A program made the position numbers and the translations under genes. Under the pieces are notes generated by a model. That model was not told the origin of the DNA and did not search any database. It saw nothing but the letters and a program-made list of their open reading frames with translations. Below are positions 21,715 through 46,813 of a DNA stretch of 64,000 nucleotides, one piece after another (positions within the stretch are counted from its first letter, which is position 1; every line of letters begins with the position of its first letter). Source of the stretch: Scardovia wiggsiae F0424 (GTDB lineage Bacteria; Actinomycetota; Actinomycetes; Actinomycetales; Bifidobacteriaceae); the NCBI RefSeq assembly GCF_000269605.1, contig NZ_AKCI01000001.1:1178001-1242000 (forward strand), read 5' to 3'.

Positions 21715-21788
21715 GGGCCCATAGCTCAGCTGGTTAGAGCGCGTCCCTGATAAGGACGAGGTCGGAGGTTCAAGTCCTCCTGGGCCCA
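21715..21788 (+). tRNA. tRNA-Ile (GAT)
   Basis: 74 nt. Acceptor arms GGGCCCA (21715-21721) and TGGGCCC (21781-21787) pair fully. The anticodon stem CGTCC/GGACG encloses loop CTGATAA with anticodon GAT. TTCAAGT marks the T-loop. The 3' CCA is not encoded. Confidence 0.97.
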
Positions 21789-21827
21789 CGCGGATTCTCG
21801 CAATACGCAGTGTAAGGTGCTGCTTTT

Positions 21828-21900
21828 GGGGGTATGGCGCAGCTGGTAGCGCATCTGCTTTGCAAGCAGAGGGTCAGGGGTTCGAGTCCCCTTACCTCCA
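21828..21900 (+). tRNA. tRNA-Ala (TGC)
   Basis: 73 nt. Acceptor GGGGGTA pairs with TACCTCC (one G-T). The anticodon stem TCTGC/GCAGA encloses loop TTTGCAA with anticodon TGC; the T-loop is TTCGAGT. Ile and Ala tRNAs often sit in rRNA spacers, but no rRNA is present here. Confidence 0.97.
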
Positions 21901-21903
21901 CCG

Positions 21904-39271: not shown

Positions 39272-40480
39272 TTAGATATCGCTTCTTGCGGCGATATCCA
39301 TTTCCCGGAGTAGGATATCCGCAGCAGCTAGAGCAGACAGCTCGTGATTATCTCCTATAAGCTCGACGATATCTACGCCAATGATTTTTCTGCCTAAACA
39401 TACTCGTTGAAGGAGCTCTTCAAGCTCATTAATCGTTAAACCTCCTGGTAGAGGGGTGCCAGTTCCAGGAACTACCGATGGATCAAGAACGTCAACATCA
39501 ACTGTAATATGCCATGGGATATCAAAATCAAGTTCACTTTGATACTGTTCTGCGGATAGATCTAGGCCACTTTTACCAGCCCATAAACGAATTTTTGAAG
39601 TCTCTTCAGGGTCTTCATCAATCATCTGCCGTACTCCAAATTGAGCTATTGTTTTTATCTCCTTTCTGCCAGCAATCCAGCTCATTACATTTCCATGATG
39701 CAAGTATGTCCGCCAGTCACCATCAAATATTGCGGATAAATAGTCGCTATGGGCATCAAAGTGTATGATTCCGAATTTATCATACCCACTTTCTATATAC
39801 CCTTGAACAATCGCCCAAGTTATTGAATGATCTCCACCAAGTATAACCGGCTTCTTACCCTCTTTACATAAAGAAGAAACTATGGTCTTTAACCGATCAA
39901 AGACCTTCCCATTCCGAGTCTGTATCTGATCTCCAATATTACCAATATCAGCAACCCGTGTGTTCTCCAGAATCCTTCTTTTCTGAACAGGATCCCACAT
40001 ACCGTCCTTATCGTCATTCAATTTAAAGATACTTGTAGCTACTTTTCGTATCGTATCCGGAGCTGTTTTTGCGCCTTCCCGATTCGATACACCGGCATCA
40101 TATTCAACGCCTAACGCAACCATATCTATAGATTCATCTTCAAGCACCTCACTAAAAGATTTAATCGGTGCATTAAAAAGACCTCTCATAAGGAAATCTT
40201 TTTCATACTTCTTATTACAATTAGCTAAAACGATAAGGGAAGATTCTATAAAAGAATGAACTACCGATTCAACAGTATCGCGTCGCTCTGGCTTTACTGA
40301 TAACAACAATTTTTTAATTGAAATTGGAAAAGCAAATTGCGTAAGGATTGAATAAGCACCATGTCCTATGGTTATTTGTAACCCACTTTCGGGATTCCAC
40401 AATATTACACGATTGTTATTAGTATCATTCTCGCGCACAATGAAGTCTGTATTAATACAATATAACTCTGAAGAATTCAT
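39272..40480 (-). CDS. Ureohydrolase (agmatinase/arginase type) with N-terminal PqqD/RRE-like domain
   Basis: 402 residues. The C-terminal about 285 residues form a complete manganese ureohydrolase: GGDHS (215-219), DAHSD (242-246), TVDVDVLDP (327-334), PGTGTPLPGG (338-347) and DIVEL (370-374); YDAGVSNREGAKTAP (127-141) is agmatinase-like. Members hydrolyse a guanidino group to urea plus an amine. The first about 105 residues are not part of that family and resemble a small winged-helix PqqD-type domain (VILWNPESGLQITIGHGAYS, LLLSVKPERRDTVESVVHSF), a fold used by RiPP enzymes to grip leader peptides. This domain call is by eye. It is the last gene of the cassette, so it may act on arginine in the peptide or on free arginine or agmatine. 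Confidence 0.8.
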   Translation of the reverse strand: MNSSELYCINTDFIVRENDTNNNRVILWNPESGLQITIGHGAYSILTQFAFPISIKKLLLSVKPERRDTVESVVHSFIESSLIVLANCNKKYEKDFLMRGLFNAPIKSFSEVLEDESIDMVALGVEYDAGVSNREGAKTAPDTIRKVATSIFKLNDDKDGMWDPVQKRRILENTRVADIGNIGDQIQTRNGKVFDRLKTIVSSLCKEGKKPVILGGDHSITWAIVQGYIESGYDKFGIIHFDAHSDYLSAIFDGDWRTYLHHGNVMSWIAGRKEIKTIAQFGVRQMIDEDPEETSKIRLWAGKSGLDLSAEQYQSELDFDIPWHITVDVDVLDPSVVPGTGTPLPGGLTINELEELLQRVCLGRKIIGVDIVELIGDNHELSALAAADILLREMDIAARSDI

Positions 40481-40502
40481 TAATATCTTTCTCTAACTTT
40501 AC

Positions 40503-42257
40503 TTACTGTTTGATATACTTCGCAAAATCACTGTCAGATGCCAATAATTCATAAGGGGAGCCTTGCTCAACAATATGATGATGGTCAAGGAGTACTATCC
40601 TATTACATCTCATCGCCGTCTGAAGGCGATGGGCAATCATGATCACAGTTTTCCCTTTCAGAACCTTCCTAAACATAGTTTCAGTACGTGCCATCTCCTC
40701 ATAGGAAAACGTTGACATCGCTTCATCAAGAACGACAAAATCAGGATTTTCTAGTACGACACGTGCCAAGGCTATCTTCTGTTTATCTACAGAACCCAAG
40801 TCAAGATCATTTACATTATCATCCAAATGACTGCTATATTCTGAAGCATCCACGAGCATAAGCGCATTTCGTATTGCCACGTCATCTGCAGAGGAATTGA
40901 TAAGATGTAAATTGAATCGCAGTGTTCCGCTAAAAATGTGTGATTCTTGTGCTACGAACATCACACGAGGCTGTCTCCCATATAGCTTTGGCGATAAATA
41001 CGAAATCGAAATATAGCCACCGGCTGGGGGTATCAAGCCGCATAACGCCAAGGCTAACGTAGTTTTTCCAGCTCCCGATGGACCAACCAATGCTATACTC
41101 TCACCAGGCATTATTCGTATGCTGACATCTTTTATCACAGGATTACCTTTCTCATATTCAACATACAAGCTATCCACAGTAACCATACACCCGTCTGAAG
41201 TATCCTGAATACAATTCTCGGTATCCTCTGAACCATCTAAACTAATAGCACTCTTTGTTGTAGAAACGCCAGCCATACGGCGCATTGCAGCCCAAGCCAA
41301 CTGAAGCTGGTCAGTCCAGTATAGAAGGTCATCCATAGGATCTACTACCAGCTGTGTGTTCATCGCTATCGCAACTACGATACCGATATTAGCTTGACCG
41401 TTAAGAACCATAGCTCCCCCAACTATTGCTACGAGCGCAAAAGGTAAGTAATAGCCAAGTTGTACCGCGGGAAACCACCACTGCTGAAGAGAGAGTGTAT
41501 AGCGTTCAGCCTTAGAAACATTATGGGCACCCTCCCCCAAGGCATCCATAATACGTTTTGAATCATTAAGTAAATCAACTGTACGAGCAGATTCAATTGA
41601 CTCGCTGGAAATGGAATCGAACCGTCCATGGTTGCGAAGCTCCTCCTCATAGGCATGCTGCGAACGCTTTACATACCACCTCGTTACCAGGAACAGAAGG
41701 GGCAGCCCTGCAAGTGAAATAAACGCAATCCGCCAATCCAGGAGGAATGAGGATGCTGCAGCAAACATCAAATACAGAACCGCGACTAAACTCTCCGGAA
41801 GTCCGATACGAACTGCTTCGGATACCGCATCAATATCATTTGTAGTACGGGCTATAACATCACCACGACCAGCCTGCTCAACCACTATTAGAGGAAGCCG
41901 TGTTACTCCATCAATAACATCATTACGCAGCCGCATAAAAATATTTTCTCCGAATCTCCATGAAGTACGTTGAGCGCACCAGGTCAGGAATGCCTGCATC
42001 GCCAATACCACACATAATATTGAGAACAGTACCCAAACATTTAACCTTACGGGTACTGCTACGTCGGTAAGAGTATCAATCAGCCACCCGAATAATATTG
42101 GCGAAAATACTCCTGCCCCAATAGCGAAAACATGAAGTACCACAAGTGCAGCAAGCCCGCCTTTATGCTCTTTCATTATTTTCAGTACATATCGCCATGT
42201 TTCTTGAGCACTGGCAACAGGTAACTGATGGCTGCGCACATTGTCATTAATACTCAT
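40503..42257 (-). CDS. ABC exporter half-transporter B (intact Walker A, degenerate signature)
   Basis: 584 residues: six membrane helices then an ATPase domain. Walker A GPSGAGKTT (392-400), Q-loop FVAQESHIFSG, Walker B VVLDEAMS with the catalytic Glu, and H-loop IAHRL are intact. The signature LSGGQ is replaced by LGSVDKQ (487-493). It has no N-terminal C39 peptidase. The ATG overlaps the stop of the partner gene (ATGA), implying an obligate pair. Likely exports the cassette's product. Confidence 0.9.
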   Translation of the reverse strand: MSINDNVRSHQLPVASAQETWRYVLKIMKEHKGGLAALVVLHVFAIGAGVFSPILFGWLIDTLTDVAVPVRLNVWVLFSILCVVLAMQAFLTWCAQRTSWRFGENIFMRLRNDVIDGVTRLPLIVVEQAGRGDVIARTTNDIDAVSEAVRIGLPESLVAVLYLMFAAASSFLLDWRIAFISLAGLPLLFLVTRWYVKRSQHAYEEELRNHGRFDSISSESIESARTVDLLNDSKRIMDALGEGAHNVSKAERYTLSLQQWWFPAVQLGYYLPFALVAIVGGAMVLNGQANIGIVVAIAMNTQLVVDPMDDLLYWTDQLQLAWAAMRRMAGVSTTKSAISLDGSEDTENCIQDTSDGCMVTVDSLYVEYEKGNPVIKDVSIRIMPGESIALVGPSGAGKTTLALALCGLIPPAGGYISISYLSPKLYGRQPRVMFVAQESHIFSGTLRFNLHLINSSADDVAIRNALMLVDASEYSSHLDDNVNDLDLGSVDKQKIALARVVLENPDFVVLDEAMSTFSYEEMARTETMFRKVLKGKTVIMIAHRLQTAMRCNRIVLLDHHHIVEQGSPYELLASDSDFAKYIKQ

Positions 42258-43918
42258 ATTTCCTCCAAATTTATAAACATCTCCCTATACTGCGGGTTTT
42301 TCATCAACTCCTGATGAGATCCGCTCATGAACAATGCATTATCACGTATCCAAAGCACTGTATCCGAATGCTGTATGTGAGCCGGACTATGGGTAGCCAC
42401 AACTGTAATAGCATCCTTACGTTCGTTGTACAGCTGTTCTATAATATTCTTTTCTGTAACTGTATCTAAAGCACTGGTAGGCTCGACTAAAACAAGCACA
42501 GCAGGATTCGGCACCAAAGCTTTTGCAAGTAATAATCGCTGACGCTGTCCACCGGACAGGTTCCGCCCACCGTCAGTAATATAGTGGTCCAGCCCATCAC
42601 TAAAACTGTCCATCAGTTCTCCCAGAGAGGAATTCTGCAAAACCCGAATTTTAACAGCATCAGGATATTCAGACCCTCCTAATATCTCGGACAAAGTCCC
42701 ACTAACTAAGCTAGCATCGGTATCCAGCAAAGTTGCCTGTTCCCTGATCGCCTTCTCTGAATAAACGGAGTATGAAACACCATTTATCAAACCTCTACCC
42801 TCATTATCAGCTCCAGCTAGCCGCTCAGCAATACCGCTCATTTCAGACAATGCATCTGCGAAAAGTACAGTGTACCCAGGTGTTATGCGGATTCCAGTCT
42901 GAGGATCCATAACCGTTTTTACCTCAGGAATAACTGATACCCCTCTGTGCGGCTCCCGCCCCGAAGACAAAACACGCTGCTCACGCTCTAGGCCAACAGC
43001 CGCTGGAACAAACTGCTGCAAAGACGAAATTAACGCTGTCACAGGCTGCAGCAGATACGTGGCTAAACCATAGAACGATACAATCTGGCCAACATTCATC
43101 CAGCCATACTGCCACTGTAGCAAAGCTATACCAAGGACTGCCAGCAGTACTGATGCGGGGATAAGTTCACGCAGCCCGTCAATTAATGCCCTCGTATTAG
43201 CAACGTTAAGGCCTTTGCGCTTCATCTCTGTAGATAAATTATGATAGCTGGCGAGAAATACCTTGCGTCCATGCGTACCCAACAATACCCTGTGCCCGGT
43301 TGCAGCGTCTATAGCCATAGAAGTCATTGCTCCGGCAGTTTTTCTGTACTCGGCGAGGTGCTTACGCAGTTTATGAAGTACTTTGGGCAAGAACAGACAT
43401 AGTATAGGGACTGCTATAAGAATAGATACCCCTACACGCCACGACTGCGTAAGTAGATAAACGCCCGCAACAGCATAAGTCCCAAGTCCGACAATAACAA
43501 ACTCAATCGCGGAAAAACCGCTGGCTATCGCACTTATATCATCCTCAGCTACCTCAACAACGTCACCAGTGTTCAATCCCTTATCAAAAACACCTCTATA
43601 CGAAATAACATGTTTAGTGACTCTCTCTTTATGCTGAGTCCTGATATCGATACCAATGCGCGTATCAAGGATATGCGCGCTTATAGAGGCCGTTATCCTT
43701 ATCAGAACAGCAGCAACAAGAAAGGTACTTACCGAAATAAGCCCAACAGTATTATGCTCATTAACTGTATTAACAAGAATACCAAGCCCTACTGGAAGTG
43801 ATGCCTCAGCCAATGATTGTATAAGAGACAGAAGAGTCAGCACAGAAAGAAGTATGCGGCGGCCTTTAGTGATCCCGACCAATTGCCTTAGTACTGCTGT
43901 AAATGAAAGATGCTCCAT
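42254..43918 (-). CDS. ABC exporter half-transporter A (no Walker A, intact signature)
   Basis: 554 residues with the exporter membrane domain and an ATPase domain. The Walker A loop is lost (FADALSEMSGIAERLAG in its place) and Walker B has Val for Asp (VLVLVEPTS), while the signature LSGGQRQ (454-460) and the H-loop His (VATHSPAH) are conserved. With the partner it would form one working ATP site (partner Walker A plus this signature) and one dead site. No leader peptidase domain. Starts 13 bp after the fold-I PLP gene. Confidence 0.88.
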   Translation of the reverse strand: MEHLSFTAVLRQLVGITKGRRILLSVLTLLSLIQSLAEASLPVGLGILVNTVNEHNTVGLISVSTFLVAAVLIRITASISAHILDTRIGIDIRTQHKERVTKHVISYRGVFDKGLNTGDVVEVAEDDISAIASGFSAIEFVIVGLGTYAVAGVYLLTQSWRVGVSILIAVPILCLFLPKVLHKLRKHLAEYRKTAGAMTSMAIDAATGHRVLLGTHGRKVFLASYHNLSTEMKRKGLNVANTRALIDGLRELIPASVLLAVLGIALLQWQYGWMNVGQIVSFYGLATYLLQPVTALISSLQQFVPAAVGLEREQRVLSSGREPHRGVSVIPEVKTVMDPQTGIRITPGYTVLFADALSEMSGIAERLAGADNEGRGLINGVSYSVYSEKAIREQATLLDTDASLVSGTLSEILGGSEYPDAVKIRVLQNSSLGELMDSFSDGLDHYITDGGRNLSGGQRQRLLLAKALVPNPAVLVLVEPTSALDTVTEKNIIEQLYNERKDAITVVATHSPAHIQHSDTVLWIRDNALFMSGSHQELMKNPQYREMFINLEEI

Positions 43919-43930
43919 TATGTAAACTTC

Positions 43931-45343
43931 CTACAACTCTAGTTCTACCGGTTTAACCATTCGATAGTTTTCACGTAATCCTTGCATAGACTCAAAACTT
44001 GAAATCTCCTGAATCAAATTAATTATCTCGCGAAGAAAAACTCCCGCTCGTGAGCCTATAGCAATTTTCATAATGCATCTCAAATCTCTTTTAAATGGAA
44101 TTACCGCATCATACCTATGTCCACGGAAACCAAAACTCCCACCAAACGTAAACTCAATATTACGTTGATGAGCCTCATAATAAAGTACACCAAGCAAAAA
44201 CATATAATCCTCATAACCGTCATTCTGTAGCTTAAGGACAGAAAAAGGCGCATGATTGATACTTGCTGACTTCAAAAGAGCCGGGTGTGCTATAGATCGG
44301 AAAATGCCCTTCCCACAAAGGGGAGCTAAGGCCTCTGCAAACAATGAATTATTTTTAGCAACTAAAGCAACGTGAGTATTCAACCACTCCCTATTAAGGA
44401 AGAAAGAATTATCTAATATCACACACTCAAAAGGTGATAGCGCAGTACCATATATCGCCCTTACTTTTCTCAGATCTCCAGAAAAATCCCCTTTATCATG
44501 TAACTGATATACCTCAACTATACCGACATTGGCAAGTTCTAGACCAAACTGATCTTGTTTTAATCCTGAACGTACATCGCAAAGTATTCCCACTCCATAC
44601 TCTCTGGCTTTTTTAAGTATTTTATATTTCCCCCATGACTCGGGAGTTAAAGTCGAATCTACTATAACATATGATGGGGCTCCAACTTCTCTCCAGAACG
44701 AAAGCAACGCACTATAATCAGTTCCTTCAAGTCCCCAGTTATAATGTATAGGTTCTATTAGTAAAATATCAATAGGTGAGTTTGGTATATCAGTTATAGA
44801 ACTATAATGGGATACTTTCGCCTGATAATTTGATAAAAGCTCTCCGATCATTAATGTCTCAAAATAATCACCAACAATAGCTACCGCTGGAGATCGTTGA
44901 TGAATTTGGCTAAAATTATAAACCATCAGATGTAGTAATGCATTGATAGCAGCGGTACCGCTGCTAAAAAGGATGCCGTCGCACAGTTCATCCGTCTGTG
45001 TACAATAATTTGTAGCAATTTTTTCCTCTAAAAATGCACAAGTAGCACTTCGAGCATAACTATAAGTTAGCTTCTGCCCCGATGGCAAGATAATAGCTTT
45101 CTCATCACTCGGTGTTTGCATATGCCCGCGAACACGTCTCTCTGAATCAATGTAAAATGCAGTACGTAGCTGAGCTGTTTGGCGAGAAAGAAAACTTTCA
45201 TACTTTTTTGGTTGTCGTGTATCTTCGAAATCCATAAGTGTATTCTCTATATGTTCAAAAAGCTTGGGATCCCTATCCTTATTCTGCTGAATCACACGAA
45301 GCAGCAGATCATGTTCTAAAGCAAGTCCTATTTCATCACCCAT
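43931..45343 (-). CDS. Fold-I PLP-dependent enzyme (Cys/Met-metabolism-like)
   Basis: 470 residues. FSSGTAAINALLHLM (126-140) matches the phosphate-binding segment of the cystathionine gamma-synthase group, VIVDSTLTPESWG contains the ring-binding Asp229, and RSGLKQDQFGLELANVG carries the likely Schiff-base Lys262 (in place of STKY). An N-terminal region of about 90 residues is atypical. Relatives catalyse gamma- or beta-elimination and replacement; the sequence is diverged and the reaction cannot be named. The start overlaps the decarboxylase stop by 8 nt. Confidence 0.75.
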   Translation of the reverse strand: MGDEIGLALEHDLLLRVIQQNKDRDPKLFEHIENTLMDFEDTRQPKKYESFLSRQTAQLRTAFYIDSERRVRGHMQTPSDEKAIILPSGQKLTYSYARSATCAFLEEKIATNYCTQTDELCDGILFSSGTAAINALLHLMVYNFSQIHQRSPAVAIVGDYFETLMIGELLSNYQAKVSHYSSITDIPNSPIDILLIEPIHYNWGLEGTDYSALLSFWREVGAPSYVIVDSTLTPESWGKYKILKKAREYGVGILCDVRSGLKQDQFGLELANVGIVEVYQLHDKGDFSGDLRKVRAIYGTALSPFECVILDNSFFLNREWLNTHVALVAKNNSLFAEALAPLCGKGIFRSIAHPALLKSASINHAPFSVLKLQNDGYEDYMFLLGVLYYEAHQRNIEFTFGGSFGFRGHRYDAVIPFKRDLRCIMKIAIGSRAGVFLREIINLIQEISSFESMQGLRENYRMVKPVELEL

Positions 45344-46553
45344 TATACTTTCCTAAATCTGATAACCCATTACTACTTAGCGTAACTTCTTCCCCTGTAT
45401 ATAGATATACTGGTAAATCCCCAAGCATATTAAAATCTCTTTTATTTGTTAAAGTATACGCACCAAAATTTGTTACTACCAGCTTATCGCCGATACTAGT
45501 TTCTTCAGGAATATCAAGTGTCGGTGTGCGTAACACATTCTCGCCGCCGAAAAAATCATTCTCATATAAAGTATTACCTGCTAGAATAGCTGGTCGTGTG
45601 GGGTTGTCTTTAACTGATTGCCGTATCTTATCTAAACTGAATACTTTAGGAACATGCCATGGTGAAAAATTCCAAGCGGAGGAATCTACCTGTACTATGT
45701 CATATCCATAATACTTATGAGAATGCTCTATTGATTGAATAGTAGTTACTAAATAACCATGAGGTCCTGAGATAGCAGCACCGGGCTCAAATCTAAATTT
45801 GATTGAACGATTAATGTTATATGCTTTAACCAGCTCACTCACCTGTTTAAAAACGTAGCGAGCTTTTGCACGATTTACATATAAATCATAAAAGCCACCG
45901 CCAAAATCTATATACTGAATTGTACTGATTGATTTTGCTACCATAAGTGCATATTGTAACTCATATAAAAATCGAGGAGGCGCAAGCTGCCCAATATGAA
46001 AATGAATCCTAGTTACGGTTAAACTCCCTTGTTCGAGGAGTGAGTGTAAACGCGTATCTGCTACGTTAACGCCGAATCTACTATTATTGGCAAAAGTATC
46101 GTTCCCATCTAGCTCTTTAGGTAATTCCAGCCTCAATCGTAACCCAATATTTGATCCTGGAAAATTATTTACGATAAACTGTAGTTGATCTAATGAGCAA
46201 ACATCCAGATCAGTTCCTTCTTCAAACATGGTAGAGATCTGGCTAACAACTGAGAAGCTAGGACCCGTGGCGGATATCTCTCTAAAATCATTCTTTCTTG
46301 CATAATCGTATTCTTTTGGAGAAGCAGTATCCGCCCCCAATCCCGCATCTACAAAAACCTTTAAAACCTCAGGAACATAGCAAGCTTTCAAAGCACAGTT
46401 CAACTTCGCATTTGGAATTAATGAAACATCTAGTTTATACTGTTCAATAGTATGTTTTATACCAGGTAAATCATAAATAAGAAACGGAGTTGGTAAAGAG
46501 TCCATAAATTGAAACATCTTTACTTTCGGCGGTGCAATGATTGGAACTTGCAT
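45336..46553 (-). CDS. Fold-III PLP decarboxylase-like protein (ODC/DAPDC family), catalytic Cys missing
   Basis: 405 residues from the ATG at 46553. Schiff-base Lys56 lies in CALKACY, His in IHFHIGQ (184-186), the glycine loop is FGGGF (217-221), and EPGAAI (256-261) binds the PLP phosphate. The late GAY motif (NFGAYTLTNKRDFN) is kept. The usual GPTCDGxD motif with the essential Cys is GNTLYEND (326-333), so Cys is Leu and Asp is Tyr. Relatives decarboxylate ornithine, lysine, diaminopimelate or carboxynorspermidine. An in-frame ATG at 46583 lies inside the hairpin and is less likely. Confidence 0.82.
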   Translation of the reverse strand: MQVPIIAPPKVKMFQFMDSLPTPFLIYDLPGIKHTIEQYKLDVSLIPNAKLNCALKACYVPEVLKVFVDAGLGADTASPKEYDYARKNDFREISATGPSFSVVSQISTMFEEGTDLDVCSLDQLQFIVNNFPGSNIGLRLRLELPKELDGNDTFANNSRFGVNVADTRLHSLLEQGSLTVTRIHFHIGQLAPPRFLYELQYALMVAKSISTIQYIDFGGGFYDLYVNRAKARYVFKQVSELVKAYNINRSIKFRFEPGAAISGPHGYLVTTIQSIEHSHKYYGYDIVQVDSSAWNFSPWHVPKVFSLDKIRQSVKDNPTRPAILAGNTLYENDFFGGENVLRTPTLDIPEETSIGDKLVVTNFGAYTLTNKRDFNMLGDLPVYLYTGEEVTLSSNGLSDLGKYNG

Positions 46554-46573
46554 ACCATATTCTTCTTTCATAT

Positions 46574-46611
46574 ATCTCGTCATACATATCTAAAGATATG
46601 TATGACGAGAT
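46574..46611 (-). terminator. Perfect 18-bp hairpin between precursor and enzyme genes
   Basis: Arms at 46574-46591 and 46594-46611 (ATCTCGTCATACATATCT and its exact complement) with a 2-nt loop. It begins 4 nt after the precursor stop and ends about 20 nt before the decarboxylase start. No T-run follows, so it likely causes partial read-through or protects the short upstream mRNA, giving more precursor than enzyme. Confidence 0.75.
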
Positions 46612-46615
46612 GGTT

Positions 46616-46813
46616 CTAATCTCCGAAATCTCCCATTCGACGTGGACGACTTCCACCCATAGCAGCAAAATCAGTTCTGATATCAACTGTACTTTCAGAG
46701 ATAACGGCAAAATCACTTTCGATTTCCGAACTAAACTCTTCAAAAGTCAAAGTATCACTGGCTTTCAACTCTGCTAAAGCTGATTCCAGCTCTTTAACTG
46801 CATTCGGTGTCAT
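46616..46813 (-). CDS. Precursor-like peptide, 65 residues
   Basis: Starts at ATG 46813, with a strong AAGGAGG 6 nt upstream. The first about 54 residues are acidic and helical-looking, like a leader (VKELESALAELKASD, LTFEEFSSEIESDFAV), ending in AAMGG. The 11-residue tail is SRPRRMGDFGD, with Arg56, Arg58 and Arg59. No Cys and few Ser/Thr in the tail argue against lanthipeptide, sactipeptide or thiazole chemistry. The Arg-rich tail fits the ureohydrolase in the same operon. A GG site suggests leader removal, but neither exporter has a C39 domain. Homology is not recognised; the assignment rests on size, layout and ribosome-binding site. Confidence 0.75.
   Translation of the reverse strand: MTPNAVKELESALAELKASDTLTFEEFSSEIESDFAVISESTVDIRTDFAAMGGSRPRRMGDFGD

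Follow-up and report, generated by a model that had tools for sequence, protein, structure and literature searches.

A candidate RiPP cassette of Scardovia wiggsiae combining an arginase-family hydrolase with two PLP-dependent enzymes

Introduction

The peptide arginases known so far are either members of pfam12640 or PF00491 proteins of the enteropeptin type, such as KgrD, which acts on a peptide (PMC12703449). Here, we describe a cassette of six open reading frames (ORFs), all on the minus strand at positions 39272-46813 of a 64,000-nucleotide stretch of the Scardovia wiggsiae F0424 genome (contig NZ_AKCI01000001.1, positions 1,178,001 to 1,242,000; hereafter the window). It encodes a small peptide, two pyridoxal 5'-phosphate (PLP)-dependent enzymes of fold types III and I, two ABC half-exporters and a PF00491 hydrolase. 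We rate the cassette as the pathway of a new family of ribosomally synthesized and post-translationally modified peptides (RiPPs) that is a variant of known chemistry and not categorically new.

In the enteropeptins, a Mn-type PF00491 arginase makes ornithine in a RiPP precursor, and the ornithine is later N-alkylated (PMC12703449), as we propose for the window. However, KgrD requires its substrate to carry a thiomorpholine, and the enteropeptin ornithine is N-methylated, whereas the window has two PLP enzymes and none of its six cassette proteins matched a radical S-adenosylmethionine or methyltransferase family in Pfam or NCBIfam. OspR of the landornamide type (pfam12640) also converts arginine to ornithine on a gene-encoded peptide, but the window hydrolase, P0006, belongs to PF00491, and a Pfam-A scan of P0006 gave no match to pfam12640. 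In microcin C, MccD and the PLP decarboxylase N-domain of MccE put an aminopropyl group on a ribosomal peptide product, and GNAT genes, which confer microcin C immunity, are also present in two plasmid loci related to the window (L004 and L006, see below). Unlike microcin C, the window has no nucleotide chemistry, no ThiF/MccB adenylyltransferase was matched among its cassette proteins, and its putative transferase has a PLP gamma-synthase fold rather than that of a methyltransferase.

The PLP enzyme Mur24 of muraymycin biosynthesis transfers an aminocarboxypropyl group from S-adenosylmethionine to an amine (PMC10491745). The likeness lies in the PLP-dependent 3-amino-3-carboxypropyl transfer to an amine and the resulting aminopropyl linker; Mur24, however, resembles 1-aminocyclopropane-1-carboxylate synthase and acts on a nucleoside, whereas the window enzyme has a cystathionine gamma-synthase (CGS) fold and is linked to a RiPP precursor. 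The loline cluster carries lolD, an ornithine decarboxylase (ODC)-like gene, alongside the gene for LolC, and thus unites gamma-substitution and an ODC-like gene as the window may do, but loline is a fungal alkaloid built from free proline. For LolC, PLP-dependent gamma-substitution on an amine has been proposed (PMC4274035). Decarboxylases and PLP-dependent enzymes near some ThiF-like RiPP clusters have been noted in a review (PMC12250964). We found the PLP pair in two loci resembling the ThiF-like (TLAT) clusters of Enterococcus and Streptococcus (L005 and L006), whereas the window has an arginase in place of ThiF. A literature search, with subscription papers mostly outside its reach, returned no paper describing an MGGSRPR motif or a RiPP aminopropylated by PLP enzymes.

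Results and Discussion

Organization of the cassette

The features of the cassette are as follows, in the order of transcription.

46616..46813, minus strand: precursor peptide gene, 65 aa, with an acidic leader (residues 1-51), MGGSRPR (residues 52-58) and the variable tail RMGDFGD
46640..46660, minus strand: codons of MGGSRPR, the likely core and modification site, judged by conservation across three precursors
46574..46611, minus strand: perfect 18-bp inverted repeat in the interval between the precursor gene and the first enzyme gene, a likely attenuator or processing hairpin
45336..46583, minus strand: fold-III PLP decarboxylase-like enzyme (P0002), 415 aa, of the diaminopimelate decarboxylase (DAPDC)/ODC/NspC group
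43931..45343, minus strand: fold-I PLP enzyme (P0003), 470 aa, with the gamma-family fold of Cys/Met metabolism, a probable 3-amino-3-carboxypropyl transferase
42254..43918, minus strand: ABC half-exporter 1, 554 aa, with LSGGQ and without Walker A or a peptidase C39 domain
40503..42257, minus strand: ABC half-exporter 2, 584 aa, with Walker A and B and a degenerate signature
40145..40480, minus strand: residues 1-112 of the ureohydrolase, an N-terminal extension suggestive of a PqqD-like RiPP recognition element (RRE)
39272..40144, minus strand: arginase/agmatinase-family hydrolase domain with PF00491 and its metal ligands, a probable peptide arginase (full P0006 ORF 40480-39272, 402 aa)

The initial annotation of this DNA, made by reading the letters and ORFs, had described six co-directional genes in an A+T-rich block, and both coordinates and G+C profile agree: G+C is 0.37-0.47 across the six genes and 0.53-0.59 outside, in a window of about 55% overall. 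Its description of the genes as mostly overlapping was slightly too strong, as only two junctions overlap (by 8 and 4 nt) and the rest are spaced by 12-32 nt.

A conserved core peptide shared by three cassettes

Homologous loci were found in a sister species of S. wiggsiae (L007), in a Pseudomonadales metagenome-assembled genome (L017) and on three plasmids: pWHA07 of Mammaliicoccus sciuri (L004), one of Enterococcus faecalis (L006) and one of Lactococcus lactis (L005). A search with the fold-I enzyme retrieved both L007 and L004. L007 has counterparts of the six window genes, arranged identically, between different flanking genes. In L004, the precursor gene and a first fold-III gene are followed by genes for the arginase, a second fold-III enzyme, the fold-I enzyme, an ABC-2 type exporter and a GNAT acetyltransferase. 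The cassette proteins of L007 and L004 are 26-45% identical to those of the window. Among 396 genomes of the phylum and 189 of the family, strong homologue matches were confined to the window genome and the one sister species, with two further phylum matches that were weak (E ~5e-5). No further Actinomycetota cassette was found; a contig scan with a three-row fold-I alignment gave only Pseudomonadota and other divergent homologues.

The precursors of the window, L007 and L004 are 65, 66 and 27 aa long and come from two phyla. MGGSRPR is invariant in them and is the sole part they share, their leaders and tails being different; in each, an acidic stretch precedes it and 2-7 variable residues follow. 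Each precursor gene sits just upstream of a fold-III gene, with an arginase and a fold-I enzyme encoded in the same cluster. When the coding motif was searched in genomes of three species of the genus, it matched once per genome in the two with a cassette (that of the host has 1,550,817 bases) and not in the third, and a reversed control pattern had no match in any of the three. The conservation of MGGSRPR and its single copy per cassette-bearing genome led us to take the peptide as the cassette substrate, for which the sequences give strong evidence. Because a strong Shine-Dalgarno sequence (GGAGG-N5-ATG, 46823-46811) precedes the start and MGGSRPR recurs in two independent precursors, the small ORF is a gene, as the initial annotation had held, and not a chance ORF. 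The same annotation would have given up its RiPP reading had homologous cassettes consistently lacked the small gene, but it is present in 3/3 cassettes found. All three thus have what is expected of a RiPP: a gene for a precursor that has a leader and a conserved core, with modifying enzymes encoded next to it.

Every enzyme family in the cassette has small-molecule members, so the genes could instead form an operon for polyamine or amino-acid metabolism and export behind an unrelated small ORF. We consider this hardly credible: MGGSRPR with strong ribosome-binding sites in both the window and a Staphylococcaceae plasmid comes close to refuting it, and the PLP pair also occurs beside other RiPP makers.

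The inverted repeat at 46574..46611, which separates the precursor gene from the enzyme genes and had gone unmentioned in the initial annotation, folds at -25.4 kcal/mol (z -6.8; 0/200 shuffles as good). Through this hairpin 3' of its gene, the precursor would probably be produced in excess over the enzymes. Comparable hairpins lie 3' of a short ORF in L006 and L005, and none was found in L004 or L007. In L005 and L006 the hairpin, which is strong, separates the short ORF from the ThiF gene (L005:5050-5195, z -8.9; L006:4375-4520, z -3.3). The listed start of P0002 falls inside the window hairpin, and its true start may therefore be 46571 or 46553.

The hydrolase is a probable peptide arginase

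P0006 matches PF00491 with 177 bits (5.7e-52; cut-off 22), and the motifs of all six Mn ligands (H218, D242, H244, D246, D328 and D330) are conserved in the alignment. With P0006 as query, no other arginase-family protein was detected in the genome. The extra N-terminal residues noticed earlier are borne out, the PF00491 core beginning at about residue 115; agmatinases in the PDB align from about there on, leaving about 80-110 additional residues. Family membership and a core with two arginines likewise support the earlier suggestion that the enzyme converts arginine to ornithine on the conserved Arg-containing tail, and P0006 is, from its sequence, a probable peptide arginase.

The identity of the N-terminal domain is suggestive only. 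A three-row profile of it aligned with PqqD (hhalign Prob 49%, P 1.7e-4), but random pieces reached similar or higher scores, and neither single sequences nor Pfam gave a PqqD match. The background comprised shuffles, other windows and 300 random pieces, and the RRE assignment was downgraded because pieces of ThiF cores scored higher than the N-terminus itself. No match to PqqD was obtained with the N-termini of the ThiF proteins. A low-confidence structure model of the domain has a beta-beta-beta-alpha-alpha-alpha order, which may be consistent with a PqqD-like domain.

The best NCBIfam models for the hydrolase are agmatinases (157 bits, below the cut-off of 174). Together with a decarboxylase resembling DAPDC, ODC and arginine decarboxylase (ADC), this score would fit a putrescine route in which the arginase and the decarboxylase act on free arginine, ornithine or agmatine and the resulting diamine is joined to the peptide by the fold-I or a host enzyme. 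However, no ligase or amidating enzyme is encoded in 3/3 cassettes, and to our knowledge the gamma-family PLP fold does not form amides. The arginines sit in the conserved core, and a plain Rhizobium agmatinase has no stretch that aligns with the extra N-terminal domain of the window and L007 hydrolases. A free diamine is hence an improbable intermediate.

The fold-I enzyme has a gamma-synthase fold

P0003 alone matched neither Pfam nor NCBIfam. A structure model built from 19 sequences, the plasmid loci being left out of the alignments, reached a predicted local distance difference test score (pLDDT) of 84, and its top rows in Foldseek and VIA were all structures of the CGS, cystathionine gamma-lyase, methionine gamma-lyase or O-acetylhomoserine sulfhydrylase type (best VIA row, Z 26.0, root-mean-square deviation 2.8 over 299 aa). 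The family profile matched O-acetylhomoserine sulfhydrylase in the PDB at 4.9e-5, and the L004 homologue came just below the PF01053 threshold (8.3e-6, 25 bits vs 27). The model thus confirms the cystathionine gamma-synthase/methionine gamma-lyase fold, and with it the earlier call of a second PLP enzyme. This is the fold of gamma-elimination and gamma-replacement enzymes, and the modelled P0003 is a probable 3-amino-3-carboxypropyl transferase.

The structures nearest to P0003 include methionine gamma-lyases, and GGSRPR is invariably preceded by Met, so the enzyme might perform gamma-elimination or replacement on this Met at the N-terminus of MGGSRPR freed from its leader, with no transfer to ornithine. 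Such a reaction seems quite unlikely, since no leader peptidase is encoded, the precursors linked to ThiF and lasso enzymes lack an equivalent Met, and the ornithine made by the arginase would go unused.

The fold-III enzyme and the PLP pair

P0002 matches PF02784 (53 bits, cut-off 23.4), aligns with DAPDC, ODC and carboxynorspermidine decarboxylase, and resembles structures of the DAPDC/ODC/ADC type. A lysA model found no other group-IV decarboxylase in the genome. The PLP-binding Lys66 is conserved, and Leu339 occupies the place of the catalytic Cys of Escherichia coli LysA. The Cys is kept in the second fold-III enzyme of L004 and in L017, and the site varies further in L006 and L005. The second L004 enzyme (L004:7776-8837) reads GNSCYERD vs GNSLYEND in the first, which suggests divided roles. 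In L007, the fold-III gene lies in two frames (L007:10073-11337; 142 and 279 aa), either as a pseudogene or through an assembly error.

ODC variants mutated at Cys360 carry out decarboxylative transamination. This behaviour, the Leu-for-Cys exchange that the first L004 enzyme shares with those of the window and L007, and the presence of both types in L004, as if their jobs differed, could mean that a peptidyl-ornithine RiPP is made but that the fold-III enzyme subjects the transferred arm to transamination dependent on decarboxylation, or to some other PLP reaction, yielding an aldehyde that cyclises onto the peptide in place of a simple aminopropyl group. We regard this as unlikely, though less so than the free-diamine route: no partner for pyridoxamine recycling is encoded, the Cys site varies further in L006 and L005, and another general acid could stand in for Cys.

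Both PLP enzymes occur with a RiPP-type precursor in six loci: with an arginase in the window, L007 and L004, with ThiF in L005 and L006, and with a lasso-type system in L017. In L006 and L005, the pair lies beside ThiF adenylyltransferases and short upstream ORFs. In L017 (5069-10549), it is oriented divergently from genes for a lasso-type cyclase (458 bits with NF033535, whose cut-off is 525) and a lasso-like precursor of 46 aa with a Lys-rich core (...AGGSNDKKENDKKAPPDGKS); its product is possibly an aminopropylated lasso peptide. In a phylogenetic tree with long branches, whose inner order is unsure, the fold-I proteins of the six loci fall on one side of a branch (support 98/95), separated from stand-alone homologues that are mostly alphaproteobacterial.

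Proposed aminopropylation of peptidyl ornithine

The pairing of a gamma-synthase with a decarboxylase follows the logic of aminopropylation, that is, transfer of a 3-amino-3-carboxypropyl group and then loss of CO2. Carboxynorspermidine decarboxylase takes CO2 off just such an N-aminocarboxypropyl group. The arginase-family enzyme, perhaps gripping the leader with its N-terminal domain, would turn one or both arginines of MGGSRPR into ornithine and so expose a primary amine as acceptor. The fold-I enzyme would activate S-adenosylmethionine or an O-acyl- or phospho-homoserine as a vinylglycine-PLP intermediate and move the 3-amino-3-carboxypropyl group onto this amine. The group, being a free alpha-amino acid, could then be decarboxylated by the fold-III enzyme, and ornithine would end up with a spermidine-like aminopropyl arm. 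The product would be carried out by a heterodimeric ABC exporter that has no peptidase domain, with the leader protease encoded elsewhere.

The initial annotation had reasoned that a PLP decarboxylase needs a free alpha-amino acid and must therefore act, at least in part, on a small molecule or a peptide terminus. The first point holds, but the restriction need not apply, because the partner enzyme of gamma-synthase fold could install such a group on the ornithine amine; the decarboxylase could then act on the peptide, and the puzzle would be resolved.

This pathway, from peptidyl ornithine through transfer and decarboxylation to export, is in our estimate close to an even bet. Its substrate residue, order of steps, donor, product and bioactivity are what we infer from the genes, the homologous cassettes, the conserved core, the family and fold assignments and the co-occurrence of the PLP pair with RiPP precursors. 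More tentatively, and with confidence that falls somewhat short of even, we propose a RiPP class in which arginine becomes ornithine and then N-aminopropyl-ornithine through a module of PLP gamma-synthase and decarboxylase that also serves ThiF- and lasso-type peptides.

Several points weigh against the proposed pathway. Both the Cys-to-Leu change (in the window, L007 and one of the two L004 copies) and the Ala that replaces the Arg after EPG in the window fold-III enzyme imply that simple decarboxylation may be impaired or altered, and a frameshift splits the L007 gene. The active-site loop of P0003 around Lys262 is poorly modelled (pLDDT ~48), and the RRE identity is weak. The precursors linked to ThiF are accompanied by neither an arginase nor any evident step that would make an amine, and the stand-alone alphaproteobacterial fold-I homologues lie mostly outside RiPP contexts, so that the family is not confined to RiPPs. 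If the pathway is true, it would give a family of ribosomal peptides whose side chain we did not find reported, a PLP decarboxylase acting on a peptide without needing a terminus, and a two-enzyme module for spermidine-like arms on peptides. The short fixed core MGGSRPR, kept in three cassettes including one on a plasmid of another phylum, makes the chemistry directly testable.

Exporter and other observations

The split ABC exporter proposed earlier is upheld by the complementary motifs of its halves: half 1 has LSGGQ and half 2 has Walker A and B, giving one ATP site, and L007 has the same split. In both loci Walker A lies in one half and the signature in the other, as in asymmetric heterodimers, and by their sequences the two half-exporters look like an obligate pair.

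We also weighed the fold-I homologues of Alphaproteobacteria as RiPP enzymes and, taken together, rejected them, since the genes around them appear to serve housekeeping or to encode MFS transporters, with one locus as the exception. There (L009:506-6678), a Rieske oxygenase and a YcaO protein are encoded near the homologue, along with an ORF of 172 aa made up of tandem ARDDDERAAVSVF repeats, and the set looks like an undescribed multi-core YcaO RiPP. No fold-I homologue was found in viral contigs or phages. The ThiF plasmid clusters (L006:9239-10852 and L063:8864-10564) encode a protein of 538-567 aa, with MFS and GNAT or methyltransferase genes nearby; by eye, the protein in L006 looks similar to an M3-type oligopeptidase, and it has no Pfam hit. 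Elsewhere in the window (21715-21902), tRNA-Ile(GAT) adjoins tRNA-Ala(TGC), an arrangement usual in the spacers of rRNA operons.

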